Shown here: one piece after another, positions 3 to 20,825 of the stretch
Layout of the letters: each line of letters starts with the position of its first letter
Numbering within the stretch: position 1 is the first letter of the stretch
Virus record (IMG/VR): IMGVR_UViG_3300006737_000284
Location: 1 to 20,825 of that record
DNA length: 20,825 bases
Strand: one strand, 5' to 3'
Source: a virus
Program-made: the position numbers and the translations under genes
The notes under the pieces: model-generated
What the model was told of the DNA's origin: nothing
Database searches by the model: none
What the model saw: the letters and a program-made list of their open reading frames with translations, nothing else

Positions 3-3000
3 TTTAATGCTCATGGTAATGATGCTAATTCAGGTTTTACAATTCTTTCTCTAGGTGGTAAACCTACTTTTTATGAAAGTAACGGTATACTAGAAATAGG
101 TGCAAGTCCTAATACAGACCATATAGGAATTTCTTTAAATAGACCAGTTACAGCTTCTATTATAAGTGGTAGCGGAACCATTACTTACGGTTCTTTATCA
201 GATGGTACAATTACAGTAACAGGCTTTGTAGACGAAGATGATATGTCTTCGAATAGTGCTACACTTATTCCTACACAACAATCAGTTAAAGCATACGCAG
301 ATACTAGACCTGGACCACAAGGCCCTACAGGTGCAACAGGACCTCAAGGCCCTACTGGATCAACAGGTTCTCAAGGACCGACTGGTACCCAAGGACCAAC
401 TGGATCACAAGGTCCAACTGGCGCTACGGGATCACAAGGTCCTACCGGTGCAACCGGGAGTCAAGGTCCTACAGGAGCCACTGGATCACAAGGACCAACT
501 GGTCCAACTGGATCACAAGGACCAACAGGTCCAACAGGTAGTCAAGGTCCTACCGGACCAACAGGTAGCCAAGGACCAACAGGTCCAACTGGATCACAAG
601 GACCAACAGGTCCAACAGGTAGTCAAGGACCAACAGGTCCAACAGGTAGCCAAGGCCCAACTGGAGCAACCGGAAGTCAAGGACCTACTGGTGCTACCGG
701 ATCTCAAGGCCCTACAGGTAGTACTGGATCTCAAGGTCCAACAGGACCACAAGGAGCTAATGCTTCTACTTCTATTTCAGGTAATACTAATAATAGAGTA
801 GTAACAGCTACAGGTAACTCCTCAGAACCATTTCAAGGTGAAGGAAATTTAACTTTTGATGGTTCTACTTTAGAAGTAACAGGAGACCTGACCGTAGAAG
901 GAAGTGTTACAGCCCAAGAATTTCATACTGAATTAGTATCATCTTCAATAGTATTCCAATCAGGTTCTACTAAGTTTGGAGATTCAATAGACGATATACA
1001 TTCATTTACAGGATCTATTAATATTTCAGGTTCTTTAGATTTAGAAGATAATGTAAGAGCTAGATTTGGTACTGGTAATGATCTTAATATTTACCACGAC
1101 GGAACAACAAGTAGAATACAAAATACTACTGGTGATGTTAGATTTATAAATTTCCAAGATGACGGAGATATTATATTTCAATCAGATGATGGTTCAGGCG
1201 ACGTAGCGGAATATTTTAGAGTTGATGGTGGAGCTGTTGGGACTATTTACTCTAAACCTTTAAAAGTTTTAGATAATGTTAATATTAACGTAGGTGGCGG
1301 GAATGATTTACAAATATCTCATGATGGTAGTGATTCTGAAATTGATAGTACTAACGGTAACCTTGTTATAAAAACATCCACTGCTACTGGTGATATTAGA
1401 TTTAATTCCGGTAGTACACAATATTTGAGATTTGACGGTGGTGCTGGTCAGATAATTGTTTCGAAAGAATTAAAATTACTCGACGATACTAAATTAAAAA
1501 TCGGTGGAGGAGGAGATTTACAAATATTTCATGATGGTACTGACGGAACAATAAGAGAGACTGAAGGTAATTTAACTATTAAGAACGATACTGCTGGCGC
1601 CGATATCATATTTACCTCAGGAAGTTCAGAATACTTTAGATTAGATGGAAGCGCAAGAGCCATAACTGTATCATCCGCTATGGGAATGTATTTTAATGAC
1701 GGTGTTGCAGCTAGATTTGGTACAGGAGGAGATTTAATTCTTTATCACGATGCTTCTAATTCTTATATACAGAATTCATTAGTAGGTGACTTAATTATAG
1801 AAAATCAAGTTAATGATAAAGATATTATCTTTAAATCAGATGATGGTTTAGGTGGTAGTGCAGAATATTTTAGAGTAGATGGAAGTTCTCAAAAAATTAT
1901 ATTTAGTAGCGCTTCTCAACATAGCGATAGTGTAATAGGTGCATTTGGATCAAGTAATGATTTACAAATCTTCCATAATAGTGCTGATTCATTTATTGAT
2001 AACTATACGGGTGATGTTACTATTAGAAATAGACAAGATGACGGGGATATTAAATTTATATCTGATGATGGATCTGGAGGTTTAACTGAATACTTTAGAG
2101 TCGATGGTGGTGACGAAAGAGTTGAATTTGAAAAAGACGTAGTAATAAATGCCAATGTAAGTGCAAGTGGAGAAATTTTAACATCTAGTCCTGGATCTTT
2201 TACACGTCCTTCTTTAGGATTTCAAACAGCCGGCGGCTTTACTGGAATATATTCTACCAACGGTACTGATAGAATGGATATTTCAATTGGGGGGACCGCA
2301 GAAATGCATTTTGATAATACCCGAGCTAAATTTGGACAATTCAGTTCATCACCAGTTATTGAATACGAATCACAAGCAAGTGGACCATCATTCACATTTG
2401 AAAATGATCTAGATACAGGTATAGGTAGAAAATCTGCCAATAAAATATCTGTTTATGCAGGAGGTGAAGTATTTACCGTAGGAGGTACTGAAGGTATTAC
2501 TGTAGTAGCAGGAGGTCTAGCTACAACAGGAGCAAGAGGAAGTATATCTTCTAACTCACACATAACAGCTTCTGGTAATATAAGCTCAAGTGCTACAATA
2601 TTTGCTAGTAAAGCACAATTTGGTAGTTCTACAGTTTTTGTAGACGGCCCAGCAGGACATATAACTGCATCAGGTGATATAAGCGGTAGTGGTACTGTAA
2701 CATTTGGTTCTTTATCAGATGATACGATTACAATAACAGGCTTTGTAGATGAAGATAATATGTCTTCTGATAGTGCTACACTTATACCAACCCAACAATC
2801 AGTAAAAGCATACGCAGATAGCAGACCTGGTCCTCAAGGACCAACAGGTAGTACCGGATCTCAAGGACCAACAGGTAGTACTGGATCACAAGGTCCAACA
2901 GGAACTCAAGGACCTACTGGATCGCAAGGTTCTACCGGAGCAACTGGATCACAAGGTCCAACAGGTGCGACTGGTTCTCAAGGACCTACTGGAGCTACTG

Positions 3001-4406
3001 GAAGTCAAGGACCAACTGGTCCAACAGGTAGTCAAGGTCCAACAGGCCCTACTGGATCACAAGGACCGACAGGTCCAACAGGATCGCAAGGTCCAACAGG
3101 TCCAACAGGTAGTCAAGGTCCTACCGGACCAACAGGTAGCCAAGGACCAACTGGTCCAACTGGTCCGACAGGAAGTCAAGGTCCTACCGGAGCGACTGGT
3201 TCTCAAGGACCGACAGGACCAACAGGTCCGACAGGATCTCAAGGACCTACTGGACCGACAGGACCAACAGGAAGTCAAGGCCCTACAGGTGCTACCGGAT
3301 CTCAAGGACCAACTGGACCTACCGGACCAACAGGTAGTCAAGGTCCTACTGGACCAACAGGTCCAACAGGTAGTCAAGGACCAACTGGAGCTACCGGAAG
3401 TCAAGGACCTACTGGAGCTACTGGAAGTCAAGGTCCTACCGGACCTACCGGACCAACCGGATCACAAGGACCGACTGGACCTACCGGACCGACAGGAAGT
3501 CAAGGTCCTACCGGAGCAACAGGTAGTCAAGGACCGACAGGTCCGACAGGACCAACTGGATCACAAGGTCCTACTGGACCGACAGGACCTACGGGAAGTC
3601 AAGGCCCTACAGGTGCTACCGGATCACAAGGTCCTACTGGACCAACTGGACCTACTGGATCACAAGGTCCGACAGGACCAACAGGTCCAACAGGTAGTCA
3701 AGGACCAACTGGAGCTACTGGAAGTCAAGGTCCAACAGGTCCGACAGGACCTACTGGATCACAAGGACCAACAGGACCAACAGGCCCTACTGGTTCTCAA
3801 GGACCTACTGGAGCTACCGGAAGTCAAGGTCCTACCGGATCTACTGGACCGACGGGAAGTCAAGGTCCTACTGGACCAACAGGTTCTACTGGTTCTCAAG
3901 GACCTACTGGAACGGGCGGTAGTCAAGGACCAACCGGATCAGGTGGAGCTCAAGGACCAACCGGAGCTTTAGGAATAACCGGAGATACTAACAATAGAGT
4001 TATTACAGCTGATGGTGATGGAACAGTAACTGGTGAAGCCAACTTAACCTTTGACGGTTCAGTTTTAGACATTACCGGTGATTTGACTATAGATGATAGT
4101 ATTATTACCTATCAAGAAAATACAGATATAGATATAGGAACAGAAACAGTAGCTTCAATAGCTCATGCAAGTTACGATGGAGCTTTCTTTGATTTTGTAA
4201 TTAAAAATGGAACAAATTTAAGAGCTGGAACAGTTTTTGCAACCCACGACGGTACTAATGTAGAATTTGCAGAAACATCCACAAACGATTTAGGAGATAC
4301 TTCTGATATAACTTTATTAGTTGATATCTCAGGAGCTGATTTAAGATTAAGAGCAACAACAACTTCTGATAACTGGACGGTTAAAACTCTGGTTAGAGGT
4401 TTATAA
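3..4406 (+). CDS. Collagen-like tail fibre protein, 5'-truncated by the window
   Basis: The frame is open from position 3, so the gene starts upstream and the ATG at 243 is an internal Met inside a repeated module. The product is probably a trimeric tail fibre/adhesin. Order of parts: a globular piece (3-190) resembling the C-terminal module of the fibre gene at 7146; a linker with [11 protein letters not shown]; a collagen-like Gly-X-Y array (312-758); an NNRV...NLTFDGS...VTGDLTV module and STKFGDS segment (about 780-1050); five imperfect repeats carrying DLQIFHDG-like and EYFRVDG-like motifs (about 1057-2115); a second copy of the linker; a longer collagen array (2829-3966); a second [16 protein letters not shown] module; and a C-terminal domain (about 4120-4406) of a type I recognise from marine T4-like fibres. 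No transmembrane segment or enzyme motif is visible. Collagen triplets in phage fibres are known to form rigid trimeric rods. The fibre role is well supported; the receptor is unknown. Confidence 0.85.
189..315 (+). repeat. Fibre linker module, copy 1
   Basis: Encodes [17 protein letters not shown], then [15 protein letters not shown] and RPG, immediately before the first collagen array. It aligns without gaps to 2706-2832 (offset 2517 nt), with high nucleotide identity and a few mostly synonymous changes. It marks the boundary of a duplicated [linker - collagen - globular] unit within one gene. Confidence 0.85.
312..758 (+). repeat. Collagen-like Gly-X-Y array A
   Basis: About 149 codons, or about 50 uninterrupted Gly-X-Y triplets, mainly GPT, GSQ, GAT and GST. 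Pro occupies X and Thr or Gln occupies Y. Codons for Gly, Pro, Thr and Ser vary synonymously from triplet to triplet, so the repeat is far more regular as protein than as DNA. It ends at GPQGANAS. Confidence 0.9.
1057..2115 (+). repeat. Five imperfect [15 protein letters not shown] repeats in the fibre
   Basis: Five tandem units of roughly 60-75 residues. Their lead motifs are [40 protein letters not shown] and [10 protein letters not shown]. Each is followed by a G-D/N-L/V strand segment, a D-I-I/R/K-F strand and a (E)Y(F/L)R(V/L/F)DG motif. The alternating pattern suggests a repetitive beta structure. I recognise this repeat from tail fibres of marine T4-like phages; its fold and ligand are not visible here. 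Confidence 0.75.
2706..2832 (+). repeat. Fibre linker module, copy 2
   Basis: Second copy of the 189-315 linker ([35 protein letters not shown]), again placed directly before a collagen array. The same-gene, same-orientation duplication indicates that the fibre grew by internal module duplication. Confidence 0.85.
2829..3966 (+). repeat. Collagen-like Gly-X-Y array B
   Basis: About 379 codons, or about 126 triplets. A recurring higher-order unit, [18 protein letters not shown] with variants, has synonymous differences between copies. No Gly interruption is visible. The array ends through [15 protein letters not shown] into GALGITGD. Pro is again restricted to X. Confidence 0.9.
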
Positions 4407-7145: not shown

Positions 7146-10064
7146 ATGGCTAACGAATTCAAAATTAAAAAAGGCCTGATCGTACACGGATCAGGTTCTA
7201 CAGGAGATAATACAATTGTCGATATTCAAGGTAATCAAGGACAATTATTCTCTATCACAGATTCACTCTCTGGATCTTTATTTTCAGTAAACGATATTTC
7301 AGGTATTCCTATATTAGAAGTTGATTCTAATGATACAGTTAATATGGGTACCTTTGGTTCATTAGCCTTAATAGCATCAGGGTCAGACGTTAAACTACCA
7401 AATGTACCAGCAGGTTCAAGTGAAACAAAAATATTATTAGCAGATTCTGACGGTAAAATAGTTACTAGAACAAATCTTTCATTACAAGGTGCTACAGGTA
7501 GTACTGGAGCTCAAGGTCCAACAGGTGCAACTGGTTCTCAAGGACCGACCGGATCAACAGGATCACAAGGACCTACCGGATCAACTGGACCTACTGGTTC
7601 TCAAGGACCAACTGGACCGACAGGAAGTCAAGGACCTACCGGTCCAACAGGCCCAACTGGATCACAAGGACCAACTGGACCTACTGGAGGAACTGGACCA
7701 ACTGGATCACAAGGACCTACTGGACCAACTGGACCGACCGGACCACAAGGTGCAACTGGAGCAACCGGTTCTCAAGGACCGACAGGACCTACTGGATCTA
7801 CTGGATCACAAGGACCTACTGGACCTACTGGTCCAACAGGTTCTCAAGGCCCTACTGGTCCAACAGGTAGTCAAGGACCTACAGGTCCAACAGGTCCAAC
7901 TGGATCACAAGGACCTACCGGTCCAACAGGCCCAACTGGTAGTCAAGGACCTACTGGAGCAACGGGAAGTCAAGGCCCTACTGGACCTACTGGACCTACT
8001 GGTAGTCAAGGTCCGACAGGACCAACAGGATCTACTGGTCCGACAGGAAGTCAAGGTCCAACCGGACCAACCGGACCAACAGGCCCTCAAGGGGCAACAG
8101 GTGCTACTGGTTCACAAGGACCTACAGGTAACACAGGAAATACGGGTAGTCAAGGGCCTACTGGAGGAACTGGACCAAATGGAGGAACAGGGCCTCAAGG
8201 ACCTACTGGCCCAACTGGTAATACTGGATCTACTGGATCTCAGGGACCAACAGGACCAACAGGTAATACTGGTTCAACTGGATCTCAAGGCCCTACTGGA
8301 CCTACAGGTTCAGGAGGATCTACAGGATCTCAAGGACCAACAGGACCTACAGGTTCAGGAGGATCTACAGGATCACAAGGACCAACAGGACCAACTGGAG
8401 GAACAGGACCTACTGGATCTCAAGGACCGACAGGCCCAACTGGAAATACCGGAAGTCAAGGTCCAACAGGTAATACTGGATCAACTGGAAGTCAAGGACC
8501 AACAGGTCCTACAGGAGGAACAGGTCCTACAGGAAGTCAAGGCCCAACTGGACCTACTGGTAATACAGGAAATACAGGTAGTCAAGGACCGACAGGTCCT
8601 ACAGGTAGTGGCGGATCTACAGGATCACAAGGTCCTACTGGACCTACTGGTTCCGGAGGTAGTACTGGTAGTCAAGGTCCTACCGGACCGACTGGAGGAA
8701 CAGGTCCTACAGGTAGTCAAGGACCTACCGGACCGACTGGAAATACCGGTAATACAGGTTCGCAAGGACCTACCGGACCAACCGGAGGTGGAGGACCTAC
8801 TGGAAGTCAAGGACCTACCGGACCTACTGGAGGTGGAGGACCAACAGGATCGCAAGGTCCAACAGGACCTACTGGAGGTGGAGGACCAACAGGTAGTCAA
8901 GGTCCAACAGGATCAACCGGAGGTGGAGGACCTACTGGATCTCAAGGACCGACAGGACCAACCGGAGGTGGAGGACCTACTGGATCGCAAGGTCCAACAG
9001 GACCTACTGGTAATACCGGATCTCAAGGCCCTACTGGACCTACCGGATCTCAAGGCCCTACTGGACCTACTGGATCTACTGGATCTACTGGATCTACTGG
9101 ATCACAAGGCCCAACTGGACCTACTGGTTCAGGTGGAGGAACAGGACCTCAAGGTCCAAATGGACCTACAGGATCAGGTGGAGGAACAGGACCTCAAGGT
9201 CCGACAGGATCAACTGGAGGTGGAGGACCAACAGGACCTCAAGGACCATCAGGAGCATTGAGTATATCAGGAGATACTAATAATAGAGTAATTACTGCAG
9301 ACGGTGACGGTACAGTTACTGGAGAAGGTAATTTAACTTTTGATGGTAGTGAACTTACAGTATCAGGTGATATTGAATTTACAGGTACTTTAAGCGGTAG
9401 TCAAGATTCTCATATAGAGGCAGAACATTTTGTTGCTCATGGTATTAATGCAAACTCTGGTTTTGGTATAGCAACATTAGGCGGTAAACCTAGCGTGTAT
9501 GGATTTGATACTATACTACATCTTGGATCAGGTCCTAATGCAGGAACAACTAACGGGATTAATTTTAATTATCCAACTACTGGTTCAATTATTCGAGTAG
9601 ATAGCAATCTTGAATTCTTTGCATTTGATAATGCAGGCTCTTCAGATACAGTACAGTTAGGTACTGCAGATGTAGTTGGTGAAGTAGCTTATTGGGGAGT
9701 AGGTACCGTAACACAAGGAGAAGTTTTTGAACTTGAACAATTAGCTCCTAATAATATTCAATGGGATGAAGCTCATGCAGATTCTACTAATGATTCAACA
9801 GGTATGTTAGGACTGGCAATAGGTAGTGGGCAAGCTAACCAAGTAGGTATGTTAATAAGAGGTTATGCAAGATTTACTTCAAAATTTTCCTCACTTCCTA
9901 ATAATGGAAGCCCGGTATATCTAAGTGCTGCGACTGAAGGTCTTATAACCGGTACTGCACCATCAGGTACAGGAGATGTAGTAAGAATAGTTGGTTATGT
10001 AGTAGATAGTGACAATGAAGTAATATATTTTAATCCTGATAGTACATACGTTACTGTAAGTTAA
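7146..10064 (+). CDS. Collagen-like tail fibre protein 2
   Basis: 972 residues. The N-terminus ([19 protein letters not shown], then [15 protein letters not shown], about residues 1-110) is a module I recognise from the virion-proximal end of marine T4-like fibres. Residues about 115-704 form an uninterrupted Gly-X-Y array of about 196 triplets. An [23 protein letters not shown] module (about 709-740) follows, then a globular region with [10 protein letters not shown] and LGGKPSVYG that resembles the first 190 nt of the window. The C-terminal domain ends with [13 protein letters not shown] and [10 protein letters not shown], also seen in such fibres. The gene has its own promoter-like TATTTATA and the one good Shine-Dalgarno. 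It is complete, unlike the upstream fibre. Role: long rod-like fibre for host contact, probably trimeric; the receptor is unknown. Confidence 0.88.
7488..9257 (+). repeat. Collagen-like Gly-X-Y array C
   Basis: About 590 codons with Gly at every third position. The first part is mostly GPT/GSQ/GAT. From about 8120 onward GNT, GGT, GSG and GGG triplets become frequent. Some local units are nearly identical as DNA: 8298-8342 and 8343-8387 differ at one of 45 bases; a 29-nt match at 9129 and 9174 is also 45 nt apart; and a 9-nt unit occurs three times at 9072-9098. These indicate recent tandem duplications in the 3' half. Confidence 0.9.
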
Positions 10065-10863: not shown

Positions 10864-11457
10864 ATGTTTATAAGTTACAATTTCGATAGGGAGGCAACAG
10901 ACCCTACTAATTATTATTTTTTTGAAGAAGGTTTTACTCAAAAAGAATTAGATAAAATTGCCAAAGGAATAGAATCATTAGAAGAAAAAAAAGCTCAAAC
11001 TGTTGGAGGAGGTAAAGATGATGTTCGTTCATCTAAAGTAAGATGGATACCTCAAGATACTAACTGGTGGTGGTTATATGAAAAACTTCATGATATGGCC
11101 GTTGAAGCAAACAATTGTTTATGGAAGTTTGATTTAACAGCTTTATCTGAAAAAATTCAATATACTGAATATCATGCCGAAGAAGGCGGGCATTATACTT
11201 GGCATCAAGATATAGGACCTGGTGATATGTCAGTTAGAAAAATATCTATTACAGTTCAATTATCTGACCCTTCTGAATACGAAGGAGGAGATTTAGAGTT
11301 ATGGACAGCAGGTTCTGAAGAGCATGCTACAAAAGCACATAAAGGAGCCGGATCAGTATTTATGTTTCCTTCATATATGTTACACAGAGTTACTCCTATT
11401 ACTAAAGGAACAAGACGTTCATTTGTATTATGGTTAGGAGGTTCTCACTATAGGTAA
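10864..11457 (+). CDS. 2-oxoglutarate/Fe(II)-dependent oxygenase (PKHD/prolyl hydroxylase-like)
   Basis: 197 residues, the size of phage-encoded 2OG-Fe(II) oxygenases. The iron triad is visible as H114-x-D116 (YTWHQD) and H174 (MLHRVTPIT), with R184 (GTRRSFVLW) as the 2-oxoglutarate-binding Arg. VQLSDPSEYEGGDLEL is the conserved beta-strand pair preceding the distal His. The reaction is hydroxylation of a protein, peptide or small-molecule substrate with 2OG and O2; the substrate cannot be read from the sequence. Its position, 800 nt after a collagen-like fibre gene and first in a glycan-type cassette, suggests fibre modification, but the fibres lack the Y-position prolines that animal prolyl-4-hydroxylases use. 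Such genes are widespread in marine T4-like phages with debated roles. Catalytic assignment is firm; the target is open. Confidence 0.88.
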   Translation: MFISYNFDREATDPTNYYFFEEGFTQKELDKIAKGIESLEEKKAQTVGGGKDDVRSSKVRWIPQDTNWWWLYEKLHDMAVEANNCLWKFDLTALSEKIQYTEYHAEEGGHYTWHQDIGPGDMSVRKISITVQLSDPSEYEGGDLELWTAGSEEHATKAHKGAGSVFMFPSYMLHRVTPITKGTRRSFVLWLGGSHYR

Positions 11458-11458
11458 T

Positions 11459-13222
11459 ATGATTAAAAATTTAGCTAAGTTATGCTTAGATAATGGAGGT
11501 AGTATATCTCCTTCTATTATCCCTGGTAATCTCATTGATGGTACGGGTCTCTGTAATTCTTCTATCTTTATAGATGATAATGGTGATATTTTATTAAACT
11601 TAAGACATGTACATTATTCTCTATATCATAGTGAGTTTAAACAGAAGTTTTATAGCGGATGGGGCTGTTTAGCATATCTCAATCCTGAAGATGATATATG
11701 TCTTAAAACAGGTAATTACTTATGTAAGTTAGATCCTGAAACTCTTTATATTAAAGATTACACAAAAATCGATACTTCCAAATACGATATTAAACCTATA
11801 TGGGAATTTATAGGTTTGGAAGATTCTCGTATTTTTAGATGGGAGGGTAAGTTATTTGTTAGTGGAGTTAGGAGAGATGTAAAAGATGACGGTGAAGGTA
11901 GAATGGAATTATGCGAGATAGAATTTGAAGACGGTAAATATAAAGAAGTTTCGAGATTAAGAATAGAAGTAGATCCTCATACTTATTTAGAAAAAAATTG
12001 GATGCCTATTGTAGATATGCCTTACCATTATATAAGGTGGGCTAATCCTTTAGAAATAGTTAAAGTAGATCCTAATAATAAATCTAAAGTAGAAGTAAAA
12101 GAAGGGACTCTTACAACTATACCTTGCAAGACAGTAATCAATAAGAGTTATGAATATTATACAGAAAGAGGTTTAAGAGGAGGTTCTCAAGTATTAAAAT
12201 ATAAAGATTATTATTTAGCTATTACTCACGAATGTAACTATTGGATAAATGAAGGTAATACTAAAGATGCAAAATATTACCATAGATTTATTTTTTGGGA
12301 TAAAAATTGGAATTTAGTTAAACTCTCTAAACCATTTAAATTTATGGATACTCAAATTGAGTTTAGTTGTGGGCTAGCTATAAAAAATAAAAATTTTTTA
12401 ATTACCTACGGATTTCAAGATAATGCTGCTTATGTTTTGAAGATGCCTGAGAAAGTATTAGAAGAATTAGAGTACGAAGATTTAGAAAAAGATTTAAATT
12501 TTGAATCTAAACACCCAGATTTCAGTTGGGAATCAAACGAACCTTATCTTTCTAAAATAATCAATAAAGAAATATTTGAAGACGGTATTTATCAAAAGCA
12601 TTTTAAAGTTAAAGAGAACGATATTGTTCTAGATATTGGTGCTAACGTAGGAGCTTTCTCTTATAAAGCATTAAAAGAAAATCCTAAAAAAGTTTATAGT
12701 ATAGAACCTTCTAAATTATTATTACCTACTTTAGAAAAAAACCTTAGTAATTTTAGTAATAAAGAAATTATAAATTATAGATTAGCTGATAATAATTCTA
12801 AAAATAATAAATTTAACTATAACGAAGAAATTAACATCTACGATAACTCAGGCTCTACGTATGATAATATTAAATTTGATGATATTATTAAAAAATATAA
12901 TATAGATAAAATAGATTTTTTAAAATGTGATTCTGAAGGAGGAGAGTATTTTATTTTTAATAAAGAAAATAAAGATTGGATAAGTAATAATGTTAAACAT
13001 ATAGCAGCCGAATTCCATCTTTGGGGTGTCCCTGCAGCATTAGATAGTTTTTATATCTTCAGAGATTTATACTTACAAAATAAAGATAATTATATTGTAG
13101 AAAATAGAGAAGGAATTGATGTATCAATTCATATGAACGATGATGAATGGTTAAAGAATTTTAGCTGGGGTGAAAAAACTAGAGCACAATTAAACGTTTA
13201 TATAAAAGATGGTAGAAAGTAA
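11459..13222 (+). CDS. GH130-like beta-propeller fused to FkbM-type methyltransferase
   Basis: 587 residues. Residues about 30-330 show motifs of five-bladed propeller glycosidases/phosphorylases (GH130/GH43-like): GLEDSRIF (119-126), LEKNWMP (177-183), LRGGSQVLKY (239-248) and a late SCGLAI strand. The GH130 'EDPR' appears here as EDSR, so catalysis is uncertain and a glycan-binding role is possible. Residues about 375-585 form a SAM-dependent methyltransferase: motif I DIGANVGAFS (392-401), the acidic SIEP (414-417) and FLKCDSEGGEY (487-497), which is characteristic of FkbM. FkbM enzymes O-methylate sugars and natural products. The fusion suggests recognition or trimming of a sugar followed by methylation. 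The start is 1 nt after the oxygenase stop, and the end overlaps the next gene by 14 nt. Confidence 0.72.
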   Translation: MIKNLAKLCLDNGGSISPSIIPGNLIDGTGLCNSSIFIDDNGDILLNLRHVHYSLYHSEFKQKFYSGWGCLAYLNPEDDICLKTGNYLCKLDPETLYIKDYTKIDTSKYDIKPIWEFIGLEDSRIFRWEGKLFVSGVRRDVKDDGEGRMELCEIEFEDGKYKEVSRLRIEVDPHTYLEKNWMPIVDMPYHYIRWANPLEIVKVDPNNKSKVEVKEGTLTTIPCKTVINKSYEYYTERGLRGGSQVLKYKDYYLAITHECNYWINEGNTKDAKYYHRFIFWDKNWNLVKLSKPFKFMDTQIEFSCGLAIKNKNFLITYGFQDNAAYVLKMPEKVLEELEYEDLEKDLNFESKHPDFSWESNEPYLSKIINKEIFEDGIYQKHFKVKENDIVLDIGANVGAFSYKALKENPKKVYSIEPSKLLLPTLEKNLSNFSNKEIINYRLADNNSKNNKFNYNEEINIYDNSGSTYDNIKFDDIIKKYNIDKIDFLKCDSEGGEYFIFNKENKDWISNNVKHIAAEFHLWGVPAALDSFYIFRDLYLQNKDNYIVENREGIDVSIHMNDDEWLKNFSWGEKTRAQLNVYIKDGRK

Positions 13223-14609
13223 ATTACAACCCTTAATAGATAAATACATCAGTGACCCTAGTAATCCCGATAGTAATTACTGGTTAGCATACGAGTATGA
13301 AAAAATAGGACAAAATGCAGCTGCGTTATCTTATTATTTAAGATGTGCTGAAATGTCTAAAGATAAAGATTTGGTTTACGAATGTCTTTTAAAGACCTGG
13401 TTAATGTTACATAGAACTGAAAGAAGACCTTGGTATGAACATCAACAACTTTTAACAGCTATTACTTACTATCCTAAAAGACCTGAAGCTTATTACCTAC
13501 TATCTATTTTACATGAAAAAAAGGAAGAATGGAAAGAGTGTTTTTATTATGCAAGTGTAGGATTAGAACTATGCGATTTTAATCTACCTGATTTAAGAAC
13601 CGAAGTTAAATACCCAGGGGATTGTGCTCTTCTTTTACAAAAAGCTTTTAGTAGTTGGTACGTGGGACAAAGAGAAGAAAGTAAAAAACTTTGGTTAGAA
13701 ACTTATAATCATCCTAATATTTCTCCTGAACATAAAGATTTAGCTAAAGAAAATCTAATTAAATTTAATTTATTTAATTATAACGATAATGAAAAAATAG
13801 ATATAGTTTTACAAGGTAAATACTCAGAATATAGTTTAGAAACTGCTAAACAGTATTTAAAATTACCATTTGTTAATGATATAGTAATTTCATGTTGGGA
13901 AGATGACAATACTCCTACAGATAACATAGATAATATAAGATTTATCAAAAATAAATACCCTGCTTCAAATGGAACAGGTAACAGAAATTTGCAGTTAGTT
14001 TCATCTTTAAATGGAGTAAAATCTACAACTACTACTTTTGTAGTCAAAATGCGAAACGATCAAAGGTATGATAACGAAAGTATGCAAAAAATGCATAATT
14101 TTTTTAATGAAAATAAAGAGAAAAAAATAAGTTACGAAAACGATGATACGTTTCCTAAAAATAGAATATTAGTTGCAGGTAATTTTTATGCTTTCCCTTT
14201 CCATCCTAGAGATCATATATTTTGGGGTAATAGAGAGGATCTATTAGAGTTATTCGATGCTCCATTAGAACATAGTAGTATAGAAGAAAGAGTAAAAATG
14301 AAAAGAGAAGATTATTGGAAATACTACGATTGTTATATTAGAACTGAATCATATATAGGTAGCCATTATTGTTCTAATTTTAACGAAAAAATTAAAAAAT
14401 GGTTACTTAAACCTGAGTTATACCTTTATGATGATTCACTTAATTATAAAGAAGCACTAGAATTAAGTAATGAATTAACTAAAAAAGTATTTAAGGCTTT
14501 TCCAAAACAAGGTATAGACTTAGAATGGGATAAATACAACTGGCCTAAATACCCCTACGATAATCAATACACCCAGTTTCATGAAAGATGGCATGAGGAC
14601 GGATATTAA
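13209..14609 (+). CDS. TPR-like domain plus WavE-type glycosyltransferase-like protein
   Basis: 466 residues. The N-terminal about 170 residues are helical, with TPR-like pairs (YWLAYEYEKIGQNAAALSYY; YYLLSILHEKKEEWKECFYY). From about residue 196 the protein matches the WavE lipopolysaccharide-synthesis pattern: IDIVLQGKYSEYSLETAKQY, IVISCWEDD (225-233), GNRNLQLVSSLNG (257-269), VVKMRNDQR (278-286) and FHPRDHIFWGNREDL (331-345). WavE proteins act in LPS core assembly and are presumed glycosyltransferases; the donor is unknown. TPRs may bind a protein acceptor, as in O-GlcNAc transferase, which would fit protein glycosylation, but that is inference. The start lies inside the previous gene (14-nt overlap), suggesting coupled translation. 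No signal peptide: cytoplasmic. Confidence 0.65.
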   Translation: MVESKLQPLIDKYISDPSNPDSNYWLAYEYEKIGQNAAALSYYLRCAEMSKDKDLVYECLLKTWLMLHRTERRPWYEHQQLLTAITYYPKRPEAYYLLSILHEKKEEWKECFYYASVGLELCDFNLPDLRTEVKYPGDCALLLQKAFSSWYVGQREESKKLWLETYNHPNISPEHKDLAKENLIKFNLFNYNDNEKIDIVLQGKYSEYSLETAKQYLKLPFVNDIVISCWEDDNTPTDNIDNIRFIKNKYPASNGTGNRNLQLVSSLNGVKSTTTTFVVKMRNDQRYDNESMQKMHNFFNENKEKKISYENDDTFPKNRILVAGNFYAFPFHPRDHIFWGNREDLLELFDAPLEHSSIEERVKMKREDYWKYYDCYIRTESYIGSHYCSNFNEKIKKWLLKPELYLYDDSLNYKEALELSNELTKKVFKAFPKQGIDLEWDKYNWPKYPYDNQYTQFHERWHEDGY

Positions 14610-15426
14610 TATAGGACTTTCAGGATCTAAATTAAAGATTTTAAACAAAGGTCTCATAAGAAAATATTCCCCTGGTAACTATTTTAAAGATAGGTTTAAA
14701 CTACAAATAGAAAAACAATTAACATTTTCTAAAAGTAATTTTTATAAACTCTCTACACCTCGTATAGTACGGTATACTGATGAATATTTTGATATGGAGT
14801 ACATTCCTGGTGAAAGTTACAATGAATTTTTTAATAAATGTAATAAACAGGATTTAGATAATATAGTTAATATATGTATAGATTATTTCGAAAAAATTCT
14901 CTTATCATCAGAAAGTTATACAGATAGTGATATAAAATCTCTATTAACTGATAAATTCAATAAAGTTAAAAAAGAGTCTTCACATAGTGGTTATATTAAT
15001 TACATTACTCATAAGATTAACTCTACAGAATTTAACAATATTCCAAAATCATCCTGTCATGGTGACTTTACTGTTGCCAACATGATATTTTTTAAAGGTA
15101 ATATATCTTGTATAGATTTTTTAGATTCTTATATAGAAACGGTATTAGTAGATATGGTAAAATTAAAACAAGACATTTATTATGAATGGATTTTAGATAT
15201 TAATGAAAGCAATTTAAGAATAAGACAAAGTTTTAATTACTTATGGAATAAGATATATTCAAAATTTAAACAGTATTATAATTTGGAATTTACAAATTTT
15301 ATTACTATCTTAAATTGGTTAAGAATAGAACCTTATATAAAAACCGATAAGCAAAAAATAGTTTTAAATAATAACATAATTAATTCAAAATATTATGAAG
15401 AGTTTATTAATTCCTATAGCAGGTAA
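14581..15426 (+). CDS. APH/choline-kinase-like phosphotransferase
   Basis: 281 residues. SCHGDFTVANMIF (158-170) is the Brenner motif HGDxxxxN (H160, D162, N167), followed by the metal-binding DFLD segment around ISCIDF (175-180). This is the core of aminoglycoside phosphotransferase/choline-kinase-fold kinases. IRKYSPGNY near the N-terminus may hold the ATP-binding Lys (K28). The reaction is ATP-dependent phosphorylation of a small hydroxyl compound or sugar; the substrate is not determined. A nucleotidyltransferase follows immediately, the same pairing as LicA/LicC in phosphocholine decoration. It overlaps the upstream gene by 29 nt. An alternative ATG at 14593 would shorten this to 17 nt; the choice between the two starts is uncertain. 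Antibiotic resistance is not implied. Confidence 0.75.
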   Translation: MKDGMRTDINIGLSGSKLKILNKGLIRKYSPGNYFKDRFKLQIEKQLTFSKSNFYKLSTPRIVRYTDEYFDMEYIPGESYNEFFNKCNKQDLDNIVNICIDYFEKILLSSESYTDSDIKSLLTDKFNKVKKESSHSGYINYITHKINSTEFNNIPKSSCHGDFTVANMIFFKGNISCIDFLDSYIETVLVDMVKLKQDIYYEWILDINESNLRIRQSFNYLWNKIYSKFKQYYNLEFTNFITILNWLRIEPYIKTDKQKIVLNNNIINSKYYEEFINSYSR

Positions 15427-16453
15427 ATCTACAAGATTTCCTGATACAAAACCTAAATGGATGTTAACACATCCTGAGAGTGGTTACTTTATGGCTATAG
15501 AAAGCATTAGAGGATTAAATTTAGATTTTTTTGATAAAATTTATTTTGTTGCACTAAAAGAACATCAGAATAAATATAGTTTTGAGCAAGGATTCAAACA
15601 AGAGTTAACCCATTTAAATTTAGATAATAAAACGGAGATAGTATATCTAAACGATCAAACAAATTCTCAATCTGAAACTATCTATAAAGCATTACTAAAA
15701 AAAGATATTAAAGGGTTTATTACAATCAAAGACTCAGATAATTTTTTTGAAAGTACTTTTGAAGATACTAAAAATAAAGTTTCATATTATAATCTTCATA
15801 AAACTACTAATATTAACCCAAGTAATAAAAGTTATATACAGCTTGATGAAAATAATATAATAACTAATATAGTAGAAAAAACAATAATTAGCCCTACTTT
15901 TTCTATAGGAGGTTATTCATTTAACTCAGCAAATGATTTTATTCATAGTTTTGAATCTATAAAAGATATGGAAGGTGAATGTTATATAAGTAATATAATT
16001 TACGATATGATGTTAAAGGATCAAATATTTTATGGTCAAGTTTGTAATAACTATAAAGATTGGGGTACTTTGGAAGATTGGAATAATTACAAAACACAGT
16101 ATAATACTCTATTTGTTGATATAGACGGTACACTAGTTGAGAATACTTCATATAAATTTCCTCCTTATATAGGAAATGGAAAGCCACTTGTAAATAATAT
16201 TAAATGGTTAAGAAAATTATATAACGAAGGAAAAACACAAATAGTTTTGACTACCAGTAGACCTCAAGAATATATGCAAGAAACTATAATTGAATTATTT
16301 GAAAAAGAAATACCTTATGATAAATTAATTATGGGATTATACCACTGTAAAAGAATTATAATAAATGATTATGCTAATTCTAATCCTTACCCTTCTTGTA
16401 ATTCTATAAACATTAAAAGAAACTCAGACACTTTAGATACATATAAAATTTAA
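15395..16453 (+). CDS. Sugar-type nucleotidyltransferase fused to a HAD phosphatase
   Basis: 352 residues. N-terminal domain (1-235): LLIPIAGKSTRF (4-15) with KPKWML is the nucleotide-binding loop of NTP-transferases; IKDSDNFF (111-118) carries metal-binding Asp; GGYSF (172-176) and DWGTLEDW (222-229) are family hallmarks. C-terminal domain (236-352): HAD motif I DIDGTL (242-247), motif II-like VLTTSRP (284-290) and motif IV-like IINDYAN (322-328). Together they would activate a phosphorylated precursor to an NDP/CDP form and remove a phosphate, as in capsule or LPS precursor synthesis. The start overlaps the kinase gene by 32 nt. It is the last gene of the coupled cassette. Substrate unknown. 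Confidence 0.78.
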   Translation: MKSLLIPIAGKSTRFPDTKPKWMLTHPESGYFMAIESIRGLNLDFFDKIYFVALKEHQNKYSFEQGFKQELTHLNLDNKTEIVYLNDQTNSQSETIYKALLKKDIKGFITIKDSDNFFESTFEDTKNKVSYYNLHKTTNINPSNKSYIQLDENNIITNIVEKTIISPTFSIGGYSFNSANDFIHSFESIKDMEGECYISNIIYDMMLKDQIFYGQVCNNYKDWGTLEDWNNYKTQYNTLFVDIDGTLVENTSYKFPPYIGNGKPLVNNIKWLRKLYNEGKTQIVLTTSRPQEYMQETIIELFEKEIPYDKLIMGLYHCKRIIINDYANSNPYPSCNSINIKRNSDTLDTYKI

Positions 16454-16979: not shown

Positions 16980-19178
16980 ATGGCAGAAACAATTATCTCT
17001 CCAGGTGTATTCTCAAGAGAAAACGATATTTCATTTATTCAACCTGCACCTGTAGTTGCAGGAGCAGCAATTATTGGCCCAACTGCTAAAGGTCCAGTAG
17101 AAGTACCTACATTAGTTACTTCATATGGTGATTATCTTAGAAAATTTGGTAGCACATTTGCTTCCGGTTCTAACTCTTACGAATTCTTAACTTCAATAGC
17201 AGTAAAAAATTATTTTTCCCAAGGCGGAAACACAGTATTAGTATCAAGAGTAGCAAACGGTACGTTTACAGCAGCTACTAATACTAATATAACTAATACT
17301 CAAACCAATACTGGTGATACTTTTGCAGTCGGATCTCACGATTTGAATATAGGTTCAGGTCCAGCAGTAGATAATCAAGAATTTAGATTATCAAATGTAG
17401 GATCAGGAAATTTAACTTATAGATTCATAGCATCAGCGGACCCAGTTCCTGCAGATGATGTAGATGGTAAAGTATTTTTCTTTTCTACAGGCTCTAATGA
17501 GGCTGGTTCAGTTTCAAATATAGTAGATGCTATTAATAACGCTTCAGGTTTATCTAGTTTTGTATCTGCTAGTGTTAGCGGATCTACAAGTTTAGTAATC
17601 TCAGGTTCATCTGCCGGTACAGACTTTAACGGCATAGTATTTGCTTCAGGTTCTAGATTACCAGGAGGAGCAAACTTTGACTCAGATAGTACAACTATCT
17701 TTACTACAGCTGGTGGAACAAATACAGTAACAGCTACTACTAATCCATTTGCTTTAGAAACTATAGGTAGAGGTACATTATACAATAATGCAGTAAATGC
17801 AAGCGACGGAGGAAAACAAAATAGTGATGGTTCCTTAATGTCAGGTTCTGCTGATAATTTAAGATGGGAAGTATCTAACGTTAATACAGGATTAGGAACA
17901 TTTACCTTATCTGTGAGACAAGGAGATGATAATTTAAAAAATAAAACTATATTAGAAACATTTAATAATATATCTTTAGATCCTAATTCTCCTAATTATA
18001 TTGAAAAAACAATAGGTAATCAAGTAAAAAATATTACTACAGATAGTGACGGATCAAAATATATAGCAGTTTCAGGTTCATACGTTAATAAATCTAACTT
18101 TGTTAGAGTATCATCAGTAAATACCCCTACTATAAATTACTTAGGTAATGACGGATTAACTGTAGAATTAGATGCACAAAATATTTCTTACTCAGCTTCT
18201 TTACCAGCAGTAGGATCAGGGTCATTCTTTGGTGCTACAGGAGATTTATTCCAAAATGCTGGCGGAACTGGAAAAGCTAGTTCATACTTTTCTGATATTA
18301 GTAGTGATAATACTCAAGGTTTAGAACCTAGTGATTATTCCGATATTATATCAGTATTAGAAAATCAAGAAGAATACGTATTCAATATTATTTCTGCACC
18401 AGGTTTAATTTTCGAATTAACGGGTCATGCTACTCCTTTAAATGCTTTAATTTCATTAGCAGAAACAAGAGGAGATGCAATTGCAGTTGTAGATTTAGTA
18501 GATTACGGCTCAACAGTTTCTAACGCAACAGGACAGTCAGGAATAATTAATAGTTCTTATGCAGCTTCTTACTGGCCTTGGTTACAAACCCAAGCTGAAA
18601 CTGGTAGAAATGAATTCGTTCCAGCATCGGTTGTAATTCCAGGAGTATATGCATTTACAGATAATAGTGCAGCACCTTGGTTTGCACCAGCAGGATTGGT
18701 AAGAGGAGGAATTACTGGAGTTATTCAAGCTGAAAGAAGATTAACTAGAACACAAAGAGATACTCTTTACACTAATAAAGTTAATCCAATAGCTTCTTTC
18801 CCTGGTCAAGGTATTTCAGTATTTGGTCAGAAAACTTTACAAACTAAAGCTTCTGCCTTAGACAGAGTAAATGTTAGAAGATTATTAATTAATTTGAAGA
18901 AATTTATTGGTGATCAAGCTAGAACATTAGTATTTGAACAAAATACTATTACTACTCGTAATAGATTCTTAGCTACTGTTAACCCGTTCTTAGAATCAGT
19001 AGTACAGAGACAAGGTCTATTTGCTTTTAGAGTAGTAATGGACGACACTAACAATACAGCCGACGTTGTAGATAGAAATCAACTAATAGGTCAAATCTTT
19101 ATTCAGCCAGCTAAAACTGCAGAATTTATAGTCCTAGACTTTACAGTTGAACCTACAGGAGCAACATTTGCTGGATAA
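16980..19178 (+). CDS. 18: Tail sheath protein (T4 gp18-type)
   Basis: 732 residues, somewhat longer than T4 gp18 (659). The N-terminus SPGVFSRENDISFIQPAPVV, then AGAAIIGPTAKGPVEVPTLV and YGDYLRKFG, is the conserved sheath core. The middle (about 90-450) is a Gly/Ser/Thr-rich variable, surface-exposed insertion. The C-terminal about 140 residues (KVNPIASFPGQGISVFGQKT; RVNVRRLLINLKKFIGDQAR; an FRVVMDDTNN strand; a FIVLDFTVEPTGA end) form the conserved domain that polymerises around the tube. Sheath contraction drives the tube through the host envelope. Leader: two TATTTATA elements and no Shine-Dalgarno. The tube gene follows, as in T4. Confidence 0.95.
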   Translation: MAETIISPGVFSRENDISFIQPAPVVAGAAIIGPTAKGPVEVPTLVTSYGDYLRKFGSTFASGSNSYEFLTSIAVKNYFSQGGNTVLVSRVANGTFTAATNTNITNTQTNTGDTFAVGSHDLNIGSGPAVDNQEFRLSNVGSGNLTYRFIASADPVPADDVDGKVFFFSTGSNEAGSVSNIVDAINNASGLSSFVSASVSGSTSLVISGSSAGTDFNGIVFASGSRLPGGANFDSDSTTIFTTAGGTNTVTATTNPFALETIGRGTLYNNAVNASDGGKQNSDGSLMSGSADNLRWEVSNVNTGLGTFTLSVRQGDDNLKNKTILETFNNISLDPNSPNYIEKTIGNQVKNITTDSDGSKYIAVSGSYVNKSNFVRVSSVNTPTINYLGNDGLTVELDAQNISYSASLPAVGSGSFFGATGDLFQNAGGTGKASSYFSDISSDNTQGLEPSDYSDIISVLENQEEYVFNIISAPGLIFELTGHATPLNALISLAETRGDAIAVVDLVDYGSTVSNATGQSGIINSSYAASYWPWLQTQAETGRNEFVPASVVIPGVYAFTDNSAAPWFAPAGLVRGGITGVIQAERRLTRTQRDTLYTNKVNPIASFPGQGISVFGQKTLQTKASALDRVNVRRLLINLKKFIGDQARTLVFEQNTITTRNRFLATVNPFLESVVQRQGLFAFRVVMDDTNNTADVVDRNQLIGQIFIQPAKTAEFIVLDFTVEPTGATFAG

Positions 19179-19215: not shown

Positions 19216-19701
19216 ATGGCAGTATTAGATCCAAACGAAATTATGTTTAGAGCCTTCGAACCGAAGGTACAGAATAGATTTATCATGTATATGGATAACA
19301 TTCCTTCTTTCATGGTAAAAACAGTATCAGCTCCAAGCTTTGAAGATGGAGAGGTAGTATTAGATCATATCAATTCTTATCGTAAGATACGAGGAAAAAG
19401 AGTATGGAATGATATGGATATGACTCTTTACGACCCGATTACACCCTCAGGAGCACAAGCAGTAATGGAATGGGCAAGACTATCTTACGAATCAGTAACT
19501 GGTAGAGCTGGGTATTCAGACTTTTACAAAAAAGATTTAACTCTTAACGTATTAGGACCAGTAGGAGATGTTGTTTCGGAATGGATTATTAAAGGAGCTT
19601 TCATCAAAACAATGGCACAAGGAGATTTTGATTGGTCAGCACCTGATGCAGTAGAATTGTCTATGACAATTGCAATGGATTATTGCGTCTTAAATTACTA
19701 A
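19216..19701 (+). CDS. 19: Tail tube protein (T4 gp19-type)
   Basis: 161 residues, essentially the T4 gp19 length (163). Conserved gp19 features: an N-terminal helix-strand entry (NEIMFRAFEPKVQNRFIMYM), DNIPSFMVKTVSAPSFEDGE, HINSYRKIRGKRVWNDMDMT, the LYDPITPSGAQAVMEWAR helix, and the C-terminal VELSMTIAMDYCVLNY strand. Hexameric rings stack on the baseplate to form the inner conduit for DNA, surrounded by the sheath. It follows the sheath gene and is closed by a clear terminator. Confidence 0.95.
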   Translation: MAVLDPNEIMFRAFEPKVQNRFIMYMDNIPSFMVKTVSAPSFEDGEVVLDHINSYRKIRGKRVWNDMDMTLYDPITPSGAQAVMEWARLSYESVTGRAGYSDFYKKDLTLNVLGPVGDVVSEWIIKGAFIKTMAQGDFDWSAPDAVELSMTIAMDYCVLNY

Positions 19702-19809: not shown

Positions 19810-20553
19810 ATGGAACAAAAACAAAAATTCCCCACAGAAATAGTAGATTTACCGTCTCAAGGTAAACTTTACCCGAAAGAATCTCCCCTTGCTAGTGGTA
19901 CTATAGAAATGAAGTACATGACTGCTAAGGAAGAAGATATTTTAACTAATCAAAATTATATAGAAAAAGGTATAGTTATTGATAAATTGATAAAAGCATT
20001 AATAGTAGATAAATCTATTAATTATAATGAATTACTTTTAGGTGATAAAAATGCTTTACTTGTAGCAGCTAGAATTTTAGGATACGGAAAAGATTATGAA
20101 TTTACTTATGGAGCTGAAAAGCAAACTATTGACTTATCTCTACTTAATAATAAACCTCTAAATGTAGAAGTTGAAAAAGCTAAATCTAATTCTTTCGATT
20201 TTACACTACCTACTACAAAAAGAGTAGTTACCTTTAAAATTCTTACTCATGGAGATGAAACTAAAATTGACCAAGAAATTAAAGGTCTAAAAAAGATCAA
20301 TAAAGAATCGTCAGCGGAAATGTCAACACGTCTTAAATATGTAATTATAGGTATAGATGGAGACACTGATAAGAAAAATATTAGAGCCTTTGTGGATAAT
20401 GAATTTCTAGCTAGAGATTCTAGAGCATTTAGAAACTACCTTAGAAACTTTCAGCCTGATGTAGATATGATATTCTATCCTGACAACGGCCCGGAAGGAG
20501 GGGTAGATATCCCAATTGGGGTAAACTTTCTTTGGCCTGACGCCACAATATAG
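19810..20553 (+). CDS. 26: gp26-type baseplate hub assembly protein
   Basis: 247 residues (T4 gp26 has 208). Hallmarks: IVDLPSQGKLYPKESPLASG (12-31), MKYMTAKEEDILTNQNYI, IVIDKLIKALIVDKSINYNE, a NALLVAARILGYGKDYEF segment, and the conserved end IPIGVNFLWPD. gp26 takes part in T4 baseplate hub assembly and is not clearly a component of the finished structure, so a chaperone role is likely. The stop is TAG. Just before it, at CTT-TGG, the +1 frame opens into a gp51-like sequence, giving a possible second, longer product. Confidence 0.85.
   Translation: MEQKQKFPTEIVDLPSQGKLYPKESPLASGTIEMKYMTAKEEDILTNQNYIEKGIVIDKLIKALIVDKSINYNELLLGDKNALLVAARILGYGKDYEFTYGAEKQTIDLSLLNNKPLNVEVEKAKSNSFDFTLPTTKRVVTFKILTHGDETKIDQEIKGLKKINKESSAEMSTRLKYVIIGIDGDTDKKNIRAFVDNEFLARDSRAFRNYLRNFQPDVDMIFYPDNGPEGGVDIPIGVNFLWPDATI
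20527..20536 (+). other. Candidate +1 frameshift site at the end of the gp26 gene
   Basis: In the gp26 frame the codons are AAC TTT CTT TGG CCT. A tRNA on CTT (20530-20532) can slip +1 to TTT (20531-20533), the same CUU-U slip used in bacterial RF2, and continue as GGC CTG ACG into the gp51-like frame. A GGGG lies 8 nt before the CTT, farther than the RF2 stimulator. Alternatives are a non-standard CTG start at 20537. Confidence 0.4.
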
Positions 20554-20782
20554 GTTAAACGTTTTTAATCAAATTCATGAAATAGTATTTCATGGTAAAG
20601 GAGGGTATGATTATGATACTGTTTACAACATGCCTATATGGTTAAGGAACTTTACTTTTCAAAAACTACAAGAACATTACGAAAAAGAAAAAGCTGAATA
20701 CGATAAGATAAATAAGAAAACTAATTCTATGAAAGGTCGTAAAGTTAAAAAACCAACTTATAGTACTAGGGCTCGCAAATAA
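20537..20782 (+). CDS. gp51-like baseplate hub assembly protein, probably made by +1 frameshift from gp26
   Basis: In the +1 frame relative to gp26, open from 20525 to the TAA at 20780-20782, the translation reads LTPQYRLNVFNQIHEIVFHG, then KGGYDYDTVYNMPIWLRNFT, then a charged Lys/Glu-rich tail ending STRARK. The 'FHGxGGYxxxTVYxMPxWLRxFT' block is, to my knowledge, a conserved small protein next to gp26 in marine T4-like phages, often called gp51-like. No ATG, GTG or TTG occurs in frame before the conserved block; the first ATG (20631) lies inside it. So expression needs the slip at 20530-20533 or a CTG start at 20537, the coordinate given here. A gp26-gp51 fusion would resemble the paired short/long tail-assembly chaperones of other tailed phages. 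The family name is less certain than the reality of the coding sequence. Confidence 0.65.
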   Translation: MTPQYRLNVFNQIHEIVFHGKGGYDYDTVYNMPIWLRNFTFQKLQEHYEKEKAEYDKINKKTNSMKGRKVKKPTYSTRARK

Positions 20783-20818: not shown

Positions 20819-20825
20819 ATGGCAA
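20819..20825 (+). CDS. Start of the next gene (truncated by the window)
   Basis: ATGGCAA: only Met-Ala and one base are visible. The leader AAACCTATTTTAAATGGC has the same A/T-rich, Shine-Dalgarno-free form as the sheath, tube and coiled-coil starts, and a TATTTATA element precedes it. The product cannot be named. Confidence 0.45.

Follow-up and report, generated by a model that had tools for sequence, protein, structure and literature searches.

How is a conserved reading frame translated that overlaps the end of a viral gene in another frame and has no ordinary start codon of its own? The question is raised by positions 20525 to 20782 of the window, as we call the whole stretch of DNA analysed here, which comes from a T4-related marine virus of bacteria (20,825 nt; IMG/VR record IMGVR_UViG_3300006737_000284). 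The sequence data make it very probable that +1 programmed frameshifting produces the long form of a tail assembly chaperone from the gp26-like gene at this place; from these data we also infer that the shift is ribosomal, its exact slip codon and efficiency, and the function of the products as chaperones.

Overlapping reading frames and gene neighbourhood

The locus comprises the following features.

16980–19178, + strand: tail sheath protein (phrog_23, E 1.3e-71; PF04984)
19216–19701, + strand: tail tube protein, upstream neighbour (phrog_4542 tail tube, E 4.3e-22)
19810–20553, + strand: open reading frame of the gp26-like, putative short tail assembly chaperone, 247 aa, zero frame (phrog_150 baseplate hub, E 3.8e-8; AlphaFold mean pLDDT 90.7)
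20528–20782, + strand: +1-frame extension, gp51-like, FFGLTPQYRLNVF..., 84 codons plus the stop codon, which the end coordinate includes (open frame; pN/pS 0.20; model pLDDT 79)
20551–20553, + strand: zero-frame stop codon TAG, overlapping the +1 codons TAT AGG (Tyr-Arg) in the sequence
20819–20825, + strand: first bases of the following gene, which the window end truncates (position at which the nearest relatives begin a tape-measure-like ORF of 900+ aa)

The +1 frame (20525, 20528 and onwards) is open from 20525 to its stop codon at 20780–20782; from composition alone, the chance of 65 open codons is about 0.0025 per sequence. The nearest upstream stop in this frame, TAA at 20522–20524, closes it on the 5' side, so that ribosomes can reach it only out of gp26, between 20525 and the stop codon of that gene, unless a non-standard start is used. 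Its earliest ATG, GTG or TTG in the window is the ATG at 20630, within NMPIWLR and 3' of FHGKGGYDY. Frame reading thus confirmed an earlier, sequence-only reading, which had assigned the conserved FHGKGGYDYDTVYNMPIWLR block to the +1 frame, open back to 20525 inside gp26 and with none of these codons before the block. The CTT TGG at which that reading had placed the slip occupies 20530–20535, directly preceded by TTT at 20527–20529, and the TATAG at the gp26 stop is invariant in 66/66 unique junctions.

The gene order is tube, short chaperone, extension and tape measure, which places the overlapping pair between tube and tape measure. For the latter, the ORF starting at 4010 in one relative (L007) shares 26% identity over 800 columns with the protein annotated as tape measure in Flavobacterium phage immuto. 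Searching the 20.8 kb window with the extension revealed a single copy of it, and hence no pair of paralogous genes of the T4 type. No tRNA was found in the window. Two large ORFs at 3–4406 and 7146–10064 carry long collagen-like GPTGATGSQ repeats and likely encode tail fibre or virion surface proteins. Between these fibre-type genes and the sheath gene, the region 10864–16453 encodes a 2OG-Fe(II) oxygenase (PF13640), an FkbM methyltransferase, a WavE-like gene, an APH-like kinase and a HAD-domain protein, and looks like a surface-glycan module.

Constancy of the +1 relation and selection on both frames

Relatives were collected in two ways. IMG/VR scans with the two window proteins, from which the best 80 of 600 and the best 80 of 382 loci were taken, yielded together with loci L001–L006 161 entries matching both proteins, corresponding to 69 unique junctions. 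A script placed the extension at +1 in 68 of these 69, and the frames of the remaining one (L154), read by eye, are likewise +1. The second sample was protein-free and relied on a 17-base DNA pattern, TTTCTTTGGCCTGACGC, which occurred in at least 120 stretches, of which 119 were examined, giving 101 unique contexts. Among the unique contexts listed, the FxGL..Y[RK] motif was present at +1 in 94/101, and one more (L338) plainly encodes the same protein, raising the number to 95. The other six are unrelated and have short +1 frames, four with one identical +1 peptide and two singles. In 95/95 true pattern junctions among the matches listed, the +1 frame stays open for at least 60 codons or runs off the contig end.

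Junctions of the Mel-JY01 type behaved in the same way, with the extension at +1 in 63/63 (open for at least 40 codons), and the +1 arrangement was also found in RM378, GXN1, SP-15, LIS04, LR756508 (L003) and a Winogradskyella MAG contig. All these junction counts come from related sequences and do not represent independent events. Viral scans with the gp26 proteins of SP-15 and RM378 matched only themselves. Comparing gp26–gp51 junctions, the check suggested in the sequence-only reading, gave a constant +1 relation; the +1 groups that were inspected have TTT or CTT as a codon and C or T as the base after it. Since the Winogradskyella contig (Flavobacteriaceae) and Flavobacterium phage immuto have the same junction layout, the host of the window virus is probably a member of the Bacteroidota. 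Current annotation misses or truncates the extension, as in phage immuto, where a 36-aa hypothetical protein annotated at 2642–2752 is a truncated piece of it that begins at an internal ATG.

Selection was analysed on 66 unique junctions of equal geometry, which remained from 79 unique CDS after removal of five for length, two for geometry and six duplicates over −240 to +190. Upstream of the junction, variability follows the period of the zero frame (mean entropy 0.56, 0.41 and 1.20 at the three codon positions), and downstream that of the +1 frame (0.42, 0.27 and 1.12). In 400 random pairs, pN/pS downstream was 0.20 in the +1 frame and 1.6–1.9 in the others; upstream it was 0.30 in the zero frame, all other frames of both stretches exceeding 1.2. 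Thus, both frames are under protein-level selection, and they overlap. The proposal that the gp26-like gene is extended by a +1 programmed frameshift into the gp51-like frame gains its support from this +1-frame selection and from the constant +1 relation.

Within the overlap, the synonymous difference drops from 0.63 to 0.12. The bases are frozen here largely because two proteins, FLWPDA in the zero frame and FFGLTP in the +1 frame, are both kept, so that freezing alone speaks for translation in the +1 frame and does not prove slipperiness. It had been suggested that the conservation of the IPIGVNFLWPD peptide reflects selection on a slippery sequence; peptide and bases are indeed conserved, but double coding mostly explains why.

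Position of the slip and competing explanations

Four short elements are relevant to the site of the shift.

20497–20503, + strand: GGAGGGG purine run, 23 nt 5' of TTT (codon bias at Gly231)
20518–20521, + strand: GGGG, 5 nt 5' of TTT, possible Shine-Dalgarno-like stimulator (codon bias at Gly237)
20527–20530, + strand: UUU_C, Phe240 codon plus the next base, likely +1 slip site (TTT in 74/74 CDS)
20530–20533, + strand: CUU_U, alternative slip site of the sequence-only reading (codon 241 is CTT in 62/66, TTT in 3 and CTA in 1; CTA also in L003)

The slip probably occurs at UUU_C, one codon upstream of CUU_U, as judged from codon usage in the relatives. Phe240 is encoded by TTT in all 74 unique CDS and never by TTC, although TTC accounts for 6 to 53 of the 74 at the eight remaining conserved Phe columns. 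Codon 241 ends in T in 65/66 unique junctions, and the +1 codon directly 5' of TTT varies among the 66. With these third bases frozen and the preceding +1 codon variable, the +1 constraint begins at TTT (20527), which argues against a start at the CTG at 20537 and is consistent with P-site slippage from UUU to UUC. Near the gp26 stop, window-group junctions carry TTT_CTT or TTT_TTT, a conserved and putatively slippery sequence. The Mel-JY01 group (n = 63) has TTT_TTT_TGG in 58 members, CTT_TTT_TGG in three and TTT_TTT_TAC in two; RM378, SP-15 and LIS04 have TTT_TTT, and GXN1 TTC_TTT_CGT.

According to the mechanism that we propose, most ribosomes would read gp26 to the TAG and release the 247-aa short form. 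A minority would shift by +1 near codon 240, where Phe-tRNA would leave UUU and re-pair with the overlapping UUC. Decoding would then continue in the +1 frame (UUU GGC CUG ...) and yield a long form of 323 aa whose C-terminal domain is helical and gp51-like.

An unlikely, though the best surviving, alternative places the +1 programmed frameshift at CUU_U (20530–20533), where Leu-tRNA would slip to UUU and give the product ...NFLGLTPQ. CTT T is indeed present in the window and in 62/66 unique relatives, and three more have TTT T. However, CUU_U is lost in L063 (CTA TGG) and L003 (CTA TTC), both of which keep UUU_C and the +1 frame, and a slip at CUU_U needs no fixed third base in Phe240, yet this base is T in 74/74. 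In the homologous junction of phage immuto (AGC TTT CTT TGG) the two sites predict different peptides, ...PIGVSFFGLTPEYR for UUU_C and ...SFLGLTPEYR for CUU_U. The +1 site of RF2 is CUU_UGA with a close Shine-Dalgarno sequence. The likeness to RF2 invoked earlier for the CTT TGG fails at the A site: after CUU the window continues with TGG, and since the codon following the slip (CUU or UGG) is not a stop, this is not an RF2 site. A −2 shift was discarded by inspection, as it requires mispairing at the codons present here.

Upstream of the preferred UUU_C site, Gly237 is GGG in 56/66 and Gly231 in 58/66 members, compared with 55/826 Gly codons elsewhere in gp26. The purine run at 20497–20503 persists even though the residue at 230 changes (Glu or Lys in 9/66); at 23 nt before the slip it is probably too far away for a direct Shine-Dalgarno effect. 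The GGGG 5 nt before TTT resembles the close Shine-Dalgarno sequence of RF2 and, by this analogy, is a possible Shine-Dalgarno-like stimulator. Bacteroidota ribosomes are thought to hide their anti-Shine-Dalgarno sequence, and in the Mel-JY01 group a GGGG corresponding to that at Gly237 is not conserved. Consensus folding of 20 junctions found no conserved downstream RNA structure or stimulator; it gave weak pairing between the purine run and the slip region with many G-U pairs. A hairpin between codons 234–235 and the GGG of codon 237, examined by cross-table, is no more than a candidate.

Could the extension be translated as a free protein? The downstream ORF lies in a constant other frame and lacks a conserved start. 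Before +78, 25/66 members including the window have no ATG, GTG or TTG in the +1 frame, 35 have one upstream only, three downstream only and three in both places. Thus, 41/66 have some such codon before the conserved block ends, most often a TTG at −35 (23/66), and no start position is common to the members that have one. In the Mel group, 20/63 have none before +30. By the sequence-only reading, homologues with an ordinary ATG at this place would refute frameshifting, and in part they exist: L003 (LR756508) does have an in-frame ATG 26 nt 5' of the gp26 stop. In the window group itself 25/66 have no start before the block.

Initiation of a separate small gp51 gene at the non-AUG CTG at 20537, or re-initiation near the gp26 stop, has a low probability. 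In its favour, the window group retains the CTG in the +1 frame, cyanophage Bellamy has a small gp51 annotated as a gene of its own, and an ATG lies close to the stop in 76/78 cyanophage-type junctions, but there the extension frame is −1. Against such initiation, the third bases of codons 240 and 241, left free by gp26 and situated upstream of the CTG, are frozen (66/66 and 65/66). The two overlapping proteins dictate the CTG itself, in place of which Mel-JY01 and L003 have CTA, and a start at the ATG at 20630 would cut helices 1 and 2 from the modelled domain. Still less probable is a +1-frame start inside gp26, such as the TTG at −35, TTG at −47 or ATG at −65 of some relatives, that would make a free extension. 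Codons of this kind occur in 38/66 unique members, and the annotation of Mel-JY01 begins a small ORF upstream of the slip. They are absent from 28/66 (25 with no start and three with a downstream one only), among them the window because of the +1 stop adjoining TTT; their positions vary by member, and the +1 residues between them and TTT are unconserved. Transcriptional slippage, with RNA polymerase dropping one base in a T-rich stretch, is hardly credible, for the run of seven T that would favour it in the Mel-JY01 group (58/63 as TTTTTTTGG) is replaced in the window group by TTTCTTT, two runs of three without a long homopolymer.

Relation to known tail assembly chaperones

The short form is connected to the T4 gp26/gp51 family through phrog_150 (E 3.8e-8), which is matched by window gp26, T4 gp26 and T4 gp51 alike; the C-terminal addition of gp51 matches phrog_634. 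Both T4 proteins also match PF12322, gp51 with an extra C-terminus, and by these profile matches gp26 and gp51 of T4 are short and long paralogues of one family. Window gp26 gave no match to PF12322 even at E 10, whereas its relatives from RM378 and GXN1 do match; Pfam searches with both window proteins returned sub-threshold chance matches only. The Mel-group extension matches a profile of the T4 gp51 C-terminus with KVP40 and cyanophage gp51 (hhalign probability 89%, E 2e-6). Alone, the window-group profile gives a weak match to gp51, at 8% probability and E 0.004, but it aligns with the Mel-group extension, and by profile alignment the extension is homologous to the T4 gp51 C-terminus through the Mel-JY01 group. 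Among PHROGs, the extension hit phrog_18012 at E 0.09.

Structural comparison was made with predicted models. Among 147 chains compared with VIA-align, three entries were listed; to two of these, YqbN (3klu, Z 5.6) and the tail assembly chaperone of HK97 (2ob9, Z 4.8), residues 1–94 of the gp26 model align, at scores that unrelated folds can reach. YqbN is presumably a tail assembly chaperone of this type. Foldseek against the PDB gave no significant match for the gp26 model (2ob9, E 3.6), and searching the PDB by sequence, whether with a joined relative, with T4 gp51 or with the profile of gp26, was unproductive. In a viral library, gp26 had 42 matches at E ≤ 0.001, including the SP-15 baseplate hub protein. 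The extension is modelled with three helices (6–22, 29–33 and 37–70; pLDDT 79) and had no match in that library at E ≤ 0.001.

Lambda G/GT resembles the locus in that one gene between tube and tape measure gives a short and a frameshift-extended form, the extension lacking its own start. It differs in its −1 shift (PMC5009743) from the +1 shift at UUU_C or UUU_U here, and no sequence similarity was detected. By analogy with lambda gpG/gpGT, the short form would cover the tape measure protein, whose gene follows, and the long form would recruit the tail tube protein, whose gene precedes. The parallel to the short/long chaperone pairs of other tailed phages, drawn from the sequence at the outset, is supported by the gene order and by the homology to T4 gp26/gp51.

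T4 itself has the same family, with gp26 as the short form and gp51 as the short-form domain plus extension, but in two paralogous genes on opposite strands, in contrast to the single gene with its +1 shift in the window. For T4-like phages, Vladimirov, Gautam and Davidson (2022) reportedly argued that the mechanism is not frameshifting. The PRFect paper (PMC10885494), in a passage citing that work, states that in some T4-like phages a short gene is accompanied by a fused long one, and a passage of the Adele paper (PMC12846349) attributes to it poly-T −1 signals in T4-like phages. Sullivan 2010 (PMC3037559) notes that cyanophage and vibriophage gp51 is without the first ~200 residues. Taken together, these papers show that T4 chaperones and the −1 mode were already known. 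Phage 0305phi8-36 resembles T4 in its short and long paralogous products, gp143 and gp144, described as a tail chaperonin pair (PMC2147016); with two genes and no frameshift it differs from the window locus. One archaeal myovirus is described as very likely +1. Our literature search, which covered few subscription papers, found no +1 frameshift for T4-type gp26/gp51 or for Flavobacterium phages. Outside phages, PA-X of influenza A uses a +1 frameshift at UCC_UUU_CGU (PMC3498833) and shares UUU_C and the direction of the shift with the locus; among the relatives read, UUU_CGU occurs in GXN1, as UUC_UUU_CGU. PA-X differs in belonging to a eukaryotic virus and in its UUU_CGN, which the UUU_CUU of the window does not fit, and homology is not implied.

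A tree of 29 family members (20 with +1, seven with −1 and two from T4) grouped these modes with three changes. The T4 pair fell with the cyanophage/KVP40 clade (97/99), and the −1 members XacN1 and LR756511 were basal on the +1 side, on long branches. We lean slightly towards the view that one homologous T4-family chaperone gene has switched the mode of making its long form among +1 at UUU_Y (window, Mel-JY01, RM378 and SP-15 clades), −1 at U_UUU_UUC (cyanophage/KVP40 clade, with some of the jumbo phages) and gene duplication (T4). The +1 site would then be a bacterial counterpart of the UUU_C class, hitherto described from eukaryotic viruses, and widespread in marine Bacteroidota phages. That a large clade shares this chaperone family and apparently requires a +1 shift supports T4 gp26/gp51 as split short and long forms, which is testable. 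The locus also offers a compact natural bacterial +1 site with conserved upstream G runs that can be compared with homologous −1 sites.

Such −1 sites are found in cyanophages and KVP40, where gp26 and a small gp51 form a homologous overlapping pair with a T-rich gp26 end (TTT TTC); the cyanophage-type extension is in the −1 frame in 78/78 unique junctions, at U_UUU_UUC, in contrast to +1 in the window. Among the cyanophage-type entries listed (L166, L253–L332), TTT TTC is invariant at the gp26 end, and many have GAGGG or GAAGGG about 10 nt upstream. The jumbo-phage relatives LR756511 (L169) and XacN1 (L333) have T-runs and an extension open at −1, and in LR756511 an ATG overlaps the gp26 stop.
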